This document shows, piece after piece, positions 57,573 to 61,911 of a DNA stretch of 64,000 bases. The DNA is from Planomonospora sp. ID82291. GTDB lineage: Bacteria; Actinomycetota; Actinomycetes; Streptosporangiales; Streptosporangiaceae. Positions within the stretch are counted from its first letter, which is position 1, and each line of letters starts with the position of its first letter. The notes beneath the pieces were generated by a model. It was not told the DNA's origin. It did not search any database and saw only the letters and a program-made list of their open reading frames with translations. Where the stretch lies: contig NZ_JABTEX010000001.1 of the NCBI RefSeq assembly GCF_015711645.1, positions 1,674,001-1,738,000 on the forward strand. The letters are read 5' to 3'. A program made the position numbers and the translations under genes.

Positions 57573-58808
57573 GTGCGCATTCTTGTGATCGGATCCGGCG
57601 GGCGTGAACACGCCCTGTGCCGGTCGTTGACAGCAGACCCCCAGGTCGCCGAGGTCCACTGTGCTCCCGGAAACGCGGGCATCGCGCAGGTCGCGACCCT
57701 GCACCCGGTGGCGCCGGCCGACCCGGCCGCGGTCGCCGCGCTGGCGGTGGAGCTGGGGGCGGACCTGGTCGTGGTCGGCCCCGAGGCCCCGCTGGTCGCC
57801 GGGGTCGCCGACGCGGTGCGGCAGGCGGGGATCGCCTGCTTCGGCCCGTCGGCCCAGGCCGCGCGGATCGAGGGCTCCAAGGCCTTCGCCAAGGAGGTCA
57901 TGGCCGCGGCCGGCGTGCCCACCGCCCGGTCCCGCACCTGCGCCACGCCCGAGGAGGCCGCCGCCGCCCTCGCGGAGTTCGGCGCGCCGTACGTGGTCAA
58001 GGACGACGGGCTGGCCGCCGGCAAGGGCGTGGTGGTCACCGGCGACCTCGACGAGGCGCTCCGGCACGCCGCCGCCTGCGGCCGGGTCGTCATCGAGGAG
58101 TTCCTCGACGGCCCCGAGGTCTCGCTCTTCGCGCTCTGCGACGGCGCCACGGCCGTGCCGCTGCTGCCCGCCCAGGACCACAAGCGCGCCTACGACGGCG
58201 ACGCCGGTCCCAACACCGGCGGCATGGGCGCCTACACGCCGCTGCCGTGGGCCCCGCGGGACCTGGCCGAGCGGGTCATGGCCGAGACGGTCGTCCCGAC
58301 GGTGGCGGAGCTGGCCCGGCGCGGCACGCCGTACACCGGGGTCCTCTTCGTCGGCCTGGCGCTGACCTCCGGCGGCCCGAAGGTGATCGAGTTCAACGCG
58401 CGGTTCGGCGACCCGGAGACCCAGGTCGTGCTGGACCGGCTGGAGACCCCGCTCGCCGGGCTGCTGCTCGCCTGCGCGACCGGGGAGCTGGAGTCCTTCG
58501 GTCCCCTGTCCTACCGCGGCGGCGCGGCGGTGACCGTGGTGGTCGCCGCGGAGGGCTACCCGGCCGACCCGGTCAAGGGCGACGTGATCGAGGGCCTCGA
58601 CGAGAAGGTCGAGGGCGCCTACGTGCTGCACGCCGGCACGGCCGCAGGCGCCGACGGCCGGGTCGTCTCGGCCGGCGGGCGCGTGCTCAGCGTGGTCGGC
58701 ACCGGGCCCGACGTCGCCGCGGCCCGCGCCGCCGCCTACGAGCTGGTCGGCCGCATCCGGCTGCGCGGCTCCCACCACCGCACCGACATCGCCGCCCAGG
58801 CCCTGTAG
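57573..58808 (+). CDS. purD: Phosphoribosylamine-glycine ligase
   Basis: 411 residues of the ATP-grasp fold. The start [19 protein letters not shown] is the family N-terminus. [21 protein letters not shown] (ATP-binding) and [12 protein letters not shown] follow, then [12 protein letters not shown] with the metal ligands. It makes glycinamide ribonucleotide, the second step of purine synthesis. GTG 57573 is set by homology and the -10 seven bases upstream. A terminator follows, then the DUF262-HipA insert, then purC. Confidence 0.97.
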
Positions 58809-58821
58809 ACAGGCCTGCAGT

Positions 58822-58854
58822 GCTCCGCAGCGGCCGTTCGGGGCGCTGCGGAGC
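58822..58854 (+). terminator. Terminator after purD
   Basis: A perfect 11-bp stem GCTCCGCAGCG/CGCTGCGGAGC (58822-58832 with 58844-58854) with an 11-base loop, 13 bases past the stop. Confidence 0.82.
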
Positions 58855-59070
58855 GGGAAGCCGCCCTCCGTGGCAGCCTGTCCCGCATCCCCTTCCGCGG
58901 CTCCGATGGACGGCGGCAGCGCTCCGCGATCTCCCCCTACCCGTCTCAACGGTCAGGGCGTCGCGACCGCCCCGTTGAGCCCACGCGCCCTCTCCGTCGG
59001 CTCTCATCCTCGACATCCCGTTCGTCACCCTCATCACTTCAAAGGCCGGATAGACGGGCGTTTCCCACCT

Positions 59071-59096
59071 AGCATTGATCGGACCAGCAGGAGGTG
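59071..59096 (+). promoter_or_regulatory. Promoter and RBS of the DUF262-HipA operon
   Basis: TAGCAT near 59071-59076 looks like a -10 and AGGAGG lies about seven bases before the ATG at 59102, so this operon has a normal short leader, unlike purD before it. Confidence 0.5.
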
Positions 59097-59101
59097 CGGA
59101 C

Positions 59102-60727
59102 ATGGCCATGGCCATCCGGCCGAGAATAGAGCAGACACGGCCGGCCCAACTCGTCGAGTGGACGTTGTCCGGCCGCATTCGCATCCCGCCCTTCCAGCGT
59201 CCCTACGGTTGGAGGCACGAGAACGTCCTGGACCTCTTCCAAAGCGTCCTCCAGGGTTATCCCATCGGAAGCCTGATCGTCTGGCAGAGGCCCGCCGATG
59301 CGGAGACCCTGCGAATAGGGCCCCTGACGATTGCCGTAGAAGCCAGGCCGGACGCGTTGTGGGTGATCGACGGCCAGCAGCGCGTCGTCAGTCTGGTGGG
59401 CGTTCTCGCCGCCTCGCAGGAGACGGCCGATCCACGGTTCAGGATCTTCTTCGATCCCCGGAGGAACGGTTTCACCTCCGCCGAGCTGAACCAGCAGGCT
59501 CCCGACCATTGGTTCCCGATGTCAATGGCGCTGGACACCGCCGCGACACTGGCCTGGCAACGCGAACGTCCGTGGCTGACCGGTGCCGAGGTGGCGCGAT
59601 GTGACACCGTGGTGACAGCCGTGCGCGACTTCCCCATCTCCATGTACGTTCTCGAGGGAGACGGCGCCGGCCTTTCCCGTTATGCCGAGGTCTTCCAGAG
59701 GATCAACACCTCCGGCACCGCGTTGCGGCACGAGGAGATCGAGGCGGCTCGGCGGGCCTCCGTGCAGACCGCTCCCTCCGGTTTCGACATGCTGATCTCA
59801 GCCGTCAGGAACACAGGCTTCGGCGCGCTTCCAGAGCGCCTTCTCACCCAGTCGATCCTCGCTGTCCAGCACGGAGACGACAGCAGGGAACTCCTCACCG
59901 GCCCTGCCGGGGAAAAGGAACGGGACAGGGTCCTACGGGTCACCGCACGAGCGCTGGAAGCGACCATCGGTTTCCTCCGCGACGAGGCGGGCATCCCTCA
60001 CCTGCGGCTGCTGCCCTACCCGTTCGTCCTCCCGGTCCTGACCCGGTTCGTCGTTCTCTTCGGCCCCCCGCGGGGGCGAGCCGCGGAGCTCCTTCGGCGC
60101 TGGATCTGGCGCGGCGCGGTCCTCGGTGCGGCCCCGCGCGGCGATACTGCGGCACTGCGCGAGTACGACCAGGTAATCGAGGGGGATCCCGTGTCCAGCG
60201 CGGACCGGCTGCTCGCTCTGCTTCCGCCGTACGAAGCATGGGAACCCGACCTGAACGCCGTCCACCTCGATCAGGTGCAGGCAAAGGTCAATCTTCTCGG
60301 CCTGTTCTCCCTCCGTCCTCGGATCATTGGCCGGACCAGCGAGTTCGATGACCGGGCCAGCACGGTGATGGATCCGAACAGGCTGATGGAAGCGGAACCA
60401 CTCCCCTTAGTGAAGATCACTGTCCTCGGCGGGAAGGTTCCTGGGGGCCTTCTGGCCGACCGGGTGGTCCATCCCCAGGCGGTGTCCGGTGCGGACATCC
60501 ACCGGGCGCTGTTCCATGAACGGTTCGAACCCGGGGTCCTTGAGAGCCACCTCATCGACGCCGAGGGCCTGACCCTGCTGCGCCGAGGCCGAGAGCGCGA
60601 GTTCGCCGCCCATCGGGCCGAGCTCGTCCGTGCGGCCATCGCCGACCACGTCCAGGAGAATGCCCTGTTCGGCTTCCCCGACGGTCCTGACCTCACGAGC
60701 CTGATCATCCCCGGAGACGCCGGATGA
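59102..60727 (+). CDS. DUF262 (GmrS/ParB-like nuclease fold) protein
   Basis: 541 residues. The N-terminal DUF262 domain has RIRIPPFQRPYGWRHENV and the nucleotide-binding DGQQRVVSL (D90-R94), then FQRINTSGTAL. The C-terminal half, with LLADRVVHPQAV, VLESHLIDAEGL and EFAAHRAELV, matches the helical tail of full-length DUF262 proteins and lacks the HNH core of DUF1524. DUF262 forms the NTPase half of GmrSD-type modification-dependent restriction enzymes. The DNA is visibly less GC-rich than its neighbours, suggesting transfer. Its stop overlaps the HipA start as ATGA. Confidence 0.85.
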   Translation: MAMAIRPRIEQTRPAQLVEWTLSGRIRIPPFQRPYGWRHENVLDLFQSVLQGYPIGSLIVWQRPADAETLRIGPLTIAVEARPDALWVIDGQQRVVSLVGVLAASQETADPRFRIFFDPRRNGFTSAELNQQAPDHWFPMSMALDTAATLAWQRERPWLTGAEVARCDTVVTAVRDFPISMYVLEGDGAGLSRYAEVFQRINTSGTALRHEEIEAARRASVQTAPSGFDMLISAVRNTGFGALPERLLTQSILAVQHGDDSRELLTGPAGEKERDRVLRVTARALEATIGFLRDEAGIPHLRLLPYPFVLPVLTRFVVLFGPPRGRAAELLRRWIWRGAVLGAAPRGDTAALREYDQVIEGDPVSSADRLLALLPPYEAWEPDLNAVHLDQVQAKVNLLGLFSLRPRIIGRTSEFDDRASTVMDPNRLMEAEPLPLVKITVLGGKVPGGLLADRVVHPQAVSGADIHRALFHERFEPGVLESHLIDAEGLTLLRRGREREFAAHRAELVRAAIADHVQENALFGFPDGPDLTSLIIPGDAG

Positions 60728-61911
60728 GCGGCCGGACGACCGCCCGGGTCCTGATCGGCGACCGGGTCGTCGGCGTGCTGGAGCAGCGGGCGGGGAAGGT
60801 CTCCTTCCGCTACCTGGACCGCGCGCCGGACCGGCCCGTGCTGGGCCTGCACTACGAGTACAACCCGCGGAAGGTCGAGAACCCTCCGGGCGGTCAGCTG
60901 CCGCCGTGGTTCGCCAACCTGCTCCCGGAGCGGGAGTCCGGGCTGCGCCGCCTGGTCACCGCCCAGCTCGGACTCAAGTCCGTCAGCGACTTCGCCCTGC
61001 TCGTCCACCTCGGGCAGGACCTGCCCGGGGCCGTCCGGGTGATCAGTGAGGACACCGCCCCCGAGGCCCCGGCGGACGACGAGGCCCCGCGTTCCGGCGC
61101 GCAGAAGATGAGCTTCTCCCTGGCCGGCATGCAGGTGAAGCTCTCGATGGCCCGGACGCCCGCGGGATTCCGGTACGTCGGGGTCGGCGGCGACTGGATC
61201 GTGAAGTTCCCCAGCCGGAGCCACGGCCTCCTCCCGGAGAACGAGCACGCCATGATGACCTGGGCGGCGCTCGCCGGGATCGAGGTGCCCGACCACACCT
61301 TGGTCCCGGTCGGCGATCTGGAGAACGTCCCCGCCGAGCTGACGACCGTCGGCGGGACGGCCTTCGCCATCCGGCGTTTCGACCGGTCCGGCGGCGGGCG
61401 CGTCCACCAGGAGGACTTCGCCCAGGTCTTCGGGCTGCTGCCGTACGAGAAGGATCGCGGCCGGGCCGAGGACGTGGGCCGGATCATCCACCGCGAGTGC
61501 CCGGGCGACCTCGACCAGTACGTGCGGCGGCTGGCCGCCTGCGTGGTGATGGGGAACATCGACGAGCACCTGAAGAACTGGTCGCTGCAGTATCCCGGGG
61601 GACGGCTCCGGGGGCTCTCCCCCGCCTACGACTTCGTCTCCGTCATGTCCTATGAAGGCTTCCGGCGGGACGTCCTGACGCTTTCCCTGGCGGGCCAGCC
61701 CGACACCCGGTACATCACGCTGGAGCACTTCCGCGGCTTCGCGGAGACCGTCGGGGCCGACCCGGACGCGGTGGCGGCCGCCGCGCGGGACGTCGCCGCC
61801 GCGATGGCCGGCTCCTGGCCGGAGGTCGGGGAGCGCTGCCCCGTCCCGGATTTCGTCGCCGCCCACATCGAGGAACGGCTGCGAAGCCTTCCCCTCCTCA
61901 AGGAGTCCTGA
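60724..61911 (+). CDS. HipA-family Ser/Thr kinase (toxin type)
   Basis: 395 residues. The HipA N-terminal subdomain (about 1-105: LEQRAGKVSFRYLDR, then LPPWFANLLPE) precedes the kinase. The kinase has SFSLAGMQVKLSM (ATP loop), DWIVKFPS, FAIRRFDR, the catalytic GNIDEHLKNWSL (D280, K284, N285) and the metal-binding AYDFVSV (D303), so it looks active. HipA kinases phosphorylate GltX or other targets and cause growth arrest, normally held in check by HipB. No HipB-like gene is present; the coupled partner is a DUF262 protein. It ends 22 bases before purC. Confidence 0.9.
   Translation: MSGRTTARVLIGDRVVGVLEQRAGKVSFRYLDRAPDRPVLGLHYEYNPRKVENPPGGQLPPWFANLLPERESGLRRLVTAQLGLKSVSDFALLVHLGQDLPGAVRVISEDTAPEAPADDEAPRSGAQKMSFSLAGMQVKLSMARTPAGFRYVGVGGDWIVKFPSRSHGLLPENEHAMMTWAALAGIEVPDHTLVPVGDLENVPAELTTVGGTAFAIRRFDRSGGGRVHQEDFAQVFGLLPYEKDRGRAEDVGRIIHRECPGDLDQYVRRLAACVVMGNIDEHLKNWSLQYPGGRLRGLSPAYDFVSVMSYEGFRRDVLTLSLAGQPDTRYITLEHFRGFAETVGADPDAVAAAARDVAAAMAGSWPEVGERCPVPDFVAAHIEERLRSLPLLKES

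Follow-up and report, generated by a model that had tools for sequence, protein, structure and literature searches.

A conserved DUF262–HipA gene pair between purD and purC of Planomonospora is a candidate toxin-kinase module

Hip kinases occur in diverse gene organisations, of which ten were described in 2021; the accessible part of that classification names none with DUF262, and states that Hip kinases with known targets phosphorylate tRNA synthetases (PMC8262856). In the HipAD system, deletion of the kinase ends phage defence and deletion of its DUF3037 partner is toxic (PMC12548924, PMC13092281). DUF262 proteins that lack DUF1524 are found in Menshen, Dazbog, PD-T4-2 and ptuXYZ (PMC10952713, PMC11980606). 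Our literature search, with preprints and most subscription papers beyond its reach, returned no description of a DUF262–HipA pair. Here, we describe such a pair in a 64,000-nucleotide stretch of the genome of Planomonospora sp. ID82291 (the window), where it lies between the housekeeping genes purD and purC (Table 1).

The two genes share an ATGA overlap of stop and start codons, and the coordinates given for this arrangement in the first-pass annotation are correct. An AGGAGG at 59089–59094 precedes the DUF262 ATG (59102) and closes a block shared with the nearest copies, which probably comprises a promoter of the module's own and its ribosome-binding site. The region upstream of the DUF262 gene has no match to a sigma-70-type promoter consensus, and Rfam and terminator scans of the module gave no match. 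Only 22 bp separate hipA from purC, leaving no space for a hipB gene there. Pfam finds no domain beyond PF03235 in the DUF262 protein, nor any beyond Couple_hipA and HipA_C in HipA. The DUF262 gene is, as first noticed, less GC-rich than its neighbours (66.7% versus 72–77%; GC3 80), with purD at 76.7%, purC at 72.3% and the window at 73.1%; GC is as low in 2 of 312 stretches of equal size. The hipA gene itself is not low, and its composition (72.1% GC, GC3 95) looks native, so that the low GC is confined to the DUF262 gene.

Table 1 Features of the DUF262–HipA locus, in positions of the window
Feature	Position	Strand	Description
purD	ends 58808	+	Upstream neighbour of the DUF262 gene
Segment that the corresponding site of a same-genus genome (G001/L228) lacks	58809..61900	.	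Alignment stops at 58808 and picks up again at 61901
Upstream block	59042..59094	+	AGGCCGGATA ... TAGCATTGATC ... AGGAGG; common to the Planomonospora and G210 copies
DUF262 gene	59102..60727	+	541 aa; PF03235, E 1.7e-22
DGQQR motif, residues 90–94	59369..59383	+	Predicted NTP-binding signature; 54/54 relatives
Stretch aligned to the DUF1524 HHIFP nuclease motif	60395..60439	+	PLPLVKITVLGG, no histidine
hipA	60724..61911	+	395 aa; HipA_C PF07804, E 9e-44; Couple_hipA PF13657, E 4e-18
Ser132	61117..61119	+	Corresponds to Ser150, where E. coli HipA autophosphorylates; Ser in 53/54
Lys161	61204..61206	+	Counterpart of E. coli Lys181 (ATP binding); 54/54
Catalytic loop DEHLKN, Asp280 to Asn285	61561..61578	+	D280, H282, K284 and N285 in 54/54
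Asp303	61630..61632	+	Counterpart of E. coli Asp332 (Mg binding); 54/54
purC	from 61934	+	Downstream neighbour of hipA

At module-free sites, purD and purC are spaced by 72 bp in the same-genus genome G001 and by 117 bp in G153 (L230). The nearest module copies, in Planomonospora (G058) and in G210, likewise follow purD directly, so that the module either has long occupied this position and was lost from some sister species, or has been exchanged there. Identity to the Planomonospora copy is 59% for DUF262 and 79% for HipA, next to 90% for purD and 92% for purC. DUF262 is thus the fastest-changing part, a pattern that would fit either a sensor or an antitoxin but proves neither. In G210 (L220, 4388–8900), purC lies elsewhere in the genome, and the gene after hipA begins almost identically, at the protein level, to the one that comes after purC in the window.

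The first-pass annotation had suggested a search for the same neighbourhood in other genomes, and the pair turns out to be common and to span phyla. We scanned 84,980 species genomes for DUF262 and took the best 80 relatives, 76 of which are immediately followed by a same-strand HipA gene; in most loci the two genes overlap or lie a few bases apart. Two of the remaining four sit at a contig edge (L111 and L128, the latter showing a hipA start). The other two are an Actinobaculum sp. locus in which DUF262 adjoins a truncated hipA (L109) and an Actinoalloteichus caeruleus locus with DUF262 alone, without hipA (L142). Across the 150 relatives examined, the best intact DUF262 relatives all adjoin hipA, and the G005 and G070 loci hold both genes as decayed copies. 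In a draw of 61 genomes from the phylum, HipA_C turned up in 6, whereas a HipA gene adjoins 76 of 80 DUF262 relatives, which rules out chance neighbours. The module is present in seven phyla (Actinomycetota, Pseudomonadota, Myxococcota, Acidobacteriota, Bacteroidota, Cyanobacteriota and Thermomicrobiota), with DUF262–HipA conserved as a two-gene unit across these distantly related lineages.

A tree of the kinases separates the paired ones, as a single clade, from HipA of E. coli K-12 and further unpaired HipAs; the base of this clade has moderate support (88, drawn open), and one kinase labelled as unpaired (L212) is in fact paired. Searched with a kinase profile, 299 genomes from the order yielded 22 clade kinases that have DUF262 immediately upstream, all intact (20 from the search, G058:C6 and the second G210 copy), and the module occurs in ~7% of genomes in the order. 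None of the HipA matches below ~140 bits in these 299 genomes is paired with DUF262 in such a layout. Four clade kinase loci are without DUF262, of which one is intact (G299) and three are broken (G027:C62, G034:C17 and G239). The contrast between 22 of 22 and one of four intact kinases gives a Fisher p of 0.0015; treating the G027 and G299 loci as a single case, since they occupy one position within one genus, raises it to 0.01. A search of the G299 genome for a DUF262 match found none; its intact solitary kinase argues that a kinase without its partner need not kill the cell, or that it is silent in this genome. We also looked for a natural DUF262–HipA fusion and found none. One locus in G237 (L218, 5484–6689) is a deletion remnant that joins DUF262 residues 2–243 to HipA residues 227–396.

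The histories of the two genes agree closely. Pairwise distances of DUF262 and HipA correlate with r 0.86 (all permutations at or below 0.14), and 25 of 49 splits are common to their trees, against a mean of 0.2 after shuffling. The shared splits include a clade, with supports of 100 and 99, in which actinobacterial sequences surround those of two gammaproteobacteria and one cyanobacterium. Because the two gene trees agree, DUF262 and hipA travel together, and their movement as a unit includes transfer between phyla. The pair is also carried by two Azospirillum plasmids, one of them conjugative, whose annotation lists a DUF262 protein and then a HipA family toxin, without HipB. A phage origin was rejected, as phage and viral collections yield partial matches only, at ~22–40% identity.

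The module could be a plain toxin–antitoxin (addiction) pair, in which DUF262 would simply neutralise HipA, without sensing phage, and the module would persist as its loss is costly. The plasmid copies and housekeeping neighbours fit this explanation, as does the usual decay of the kinase where DUF262 is gone. However, a protein of 541 residues with a conserved NTPase signature goes far beyond the size an antitoxin needs, and the module is commonly lost, with empty sites in G001 and G153 and remnants in G005, G070 and G237, so that any addiction would be weak. We consider simple addiction unlikely.

The DUF262 protein contains a GmrSD/BrxU-like ParB/Srx NTPase-type domain, a helical middle and a DUF1524-related C-terminal part without the HNH histidines. 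Its profile aligns end-to-end with that of a GmrSD-type family (hhalign, 99.9%, 482 columns). An AlphaFold2 model built from 54 sequences (pLDDT 89.3, pTM 0.73) retrieves BrxU (7p9k) as the first Foldseek match (E 2.2e-10), with SspE next; global TM-scores are low (~0.3), so these matches back local fold and order only. The NTPase-type domain holds the DGQQR motif, whose role is taken from earlier work (PMC4619093, PMC10952713). Its Asp90 is invariant in 54 of 54 aligned relatives, a conservation that is partly biased since DGQQR was among the search seeds. The GmrSD-type family used for comparison bears HHIFP in its C-terminal half, and in the aligned stretch a conserved histidine is found in 0 of 54 relatives of the window protein. 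Pfam misses DUF1524 even in that HHIFP-bearing family, and the argument for nuclease loss is therefore built on the motif rather than on the absent Pfam match. Taken together, the alignments place the DUF262 protein among the relatives of type IV restriction enzymes such as GmrSD, with a predicted NTPase-type core retained and the nuclease motif lost.

The apparent activity of HipA, proposed at first reading, is borne out by the predicted catalytic residues, among them Asp280, which corresponds to E. coli Asp309, and Asn285, the Asn of the catalytic loop, both kept in 54 of 54 relatives. Gly135 of the Gly-rich loop is likewise invariant (54/54). These residues lay outside the search seed, and their invariance thus offers unbiased evidence for a kinase that is probably active. 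The initial observation that HipB is missing also stands. No helix–turn–helix HipB domain is present in either protein (Pfam, NCBIfam), and no conserved small neighbour that could be a HipB candidate recurs across the 76 loci, which rules out a hidden HipB. A deltaproteobacterial copy (L119, 9542–13255) has a HipA with a C-terminal extension of ~350 residues of unknown family, followed by a second HipA gene.

A kinase that is active might serve as a regulator rather than a toxin, phosphorylating DUF262 or an invader protein to switch an NTPase or DNA-binding activity. Tight joint inheritance and the retention of Ser132 would agree with this. Nonetheless, the tRNA synthetase targets in the accessible part of the Hip classification (PMC8262856) speak against it, and the DUF262 protein has no nuclease motif left to control, so that the regulator would have no output; we judge this role less probable still than simple addiction.

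The genes around the module are mostly housekeeping. Defence-type genes account for approximately 6 of 137 neighbours, compared with 2 of 135 in control regions (p = 0.28); the counts are approximate, because genes were predicted with a basic in-house caller and the sets of neighbours entered the scan as mixed alignments. The enrichment is weak and not significant, and does not support the defence-island setting for which the first-pass annotation had proposed to look. No third conserved gene recurs in module loci beyond single genera. Position among genes such as purD and purC would accord with a housekeeping or stress-signalling pair to which foreign DNA is irrelevant. Patchy distribution (~7% of the order), empty sites in sister species, plasmid copies and inter-phylum transfer all oppose this explanation, which is the least probable of those we weighed.

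Other DUF262 genes are found in the same genome. On contig C8 (L058, 6948–10453), a hipI-like kinase of 325 residues and a HIRAN-domain hipN-like gene lie directly upstream of another DUF262. This link is not conserved, and the three genes did not turn up in this order in the further genomes examined: other hipIN loci are without DUF262, and hipIN is absent from the flanks seen around the nearest relatives of this DUF262. Contig C7 (L057, 7325–11297) carries a PDC-M55-like operon of an AAA_15 ATPase, a 321-residue protein and DUF262, and the genome therefore holds several DUF262 systems.

We favour a stand-alone toxin–antitoxin or abortive-infection-type module, in which a nuclease-dead DUF262 restrains HipA and senses a signal while HipA acts as the toxin kinase, and we give this a probability of roughly 0.55. 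The DUF262 protein, encoded first, would keep HipA in check and serve as the sensor. The trigger could be DNA that invades the cell or carries modifications, or else a change in the complex that depends on NTP; HipA, once set free or switched on, would then phosphorylate a host target and arrest growth. By analogy with other Hip kinases, this target would probably be in translation. Complex formation, toxicity, restraint by DUF262, the trigger, the target and a part in phage defence are all steps that we infer. This reading is supported by the 76 of 80 adjacency, the 22 of 22 versus one of four intact kinases, the kinases' own clade, joint inheritance and the lost nuclease motif. The conjugative plasmid copy, the relationship of DUF262 to that of PDC-M55C in a candidate defence operon and the HipAD precedent lend further support. 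Against it stand the few defence neighbours, the intact kinase that G299 keeps on its own, and the L142 and L109 loci.

A more specific possibility is immunity built on a type IV enzyme that has lost its nuclease and become a DNA- or NTP-sensing antitoxin, which would release HipA to halt infected cells. We rate this somewhat below even odds. The G299 kinase and the missing defence-island signal weigh against the stronger versions of the mechanism. The original proposal of DUF262 as sensor or antitoxin for HipA survives in part: the lost nuclease motif, joint inheritance and the HipAD analogue favour it, and its defence-island context is not supported. If the module does work in this manner, restriction machinery has been repurposed, in a compact pair that extends over seven phyla, as a widespread trigger of a toxin kinase. 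It would suggest that the DUF262 fold is a general sensor/NTPase part that drives a kinase here and a nuclease in its relatives.

Among known systems, HipAD (DS-6, PADLOC PDC-M66) is the nearest tested analogue, as it is likewise a two-gene unit of a HipA-type kinase and a non-HipB partner. Its partner is DUF3037, which is absent here, whereas PF03235 takes that place in the window; the window HipA has no match below E 0.05 to PADLOC models. The pair would be the second case, after HipAD, of a HipA partnered by a protein unrelated to HipB. The Hip kinases of the Gerdes classification, including hipBA, share the kinase motifs, the HipA N-subdomain and a bicistronic layout with the partner gene first. 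In contrast, the HTH, HIRAN, separate HipS and Stl-like partners given in the accessible part of that work have no counterpart here, and the pair adds a gene organisation missing from that part. E. coli hipBA has the HTH antitoxin HipB, which the window pair is without, and its kinase falls in a separate clade. GmrSD, BrxU and SspE resemble the DUF262 protein in their DGQQR-bearing core and end-to-end profile similarity, with BrxU as the top fold match, but GmrSD-type enzymes carry the DUF1524 HNH motif (HHIFP or DHIYP), the histidines of which are missing here, where a kinase gene is attached instead. The best PADLOC match of the DUF262 protein (174–232 bits) is the DUF262 component of PDC-M55, a candidate system of an AAA ATPase, a ~320-residue protein and DUF262. 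Clear PDC-M55C members score 770–850 bits and form a three-gene operon without HipA, whereas the window neighbours are purD, hipA and purC. Finally, ptuXYZ, Menshen, Dazbog and PD-T4-2 also have a DUF262 protein that lacks DUF1524, encoded in operons that are defensive or candidates for defence; their partners include an ATPase, a BECR RNase, an OLD nuclease and others, with no HipA kinase named among them, while in the window the partner of DUF262 is HipA.
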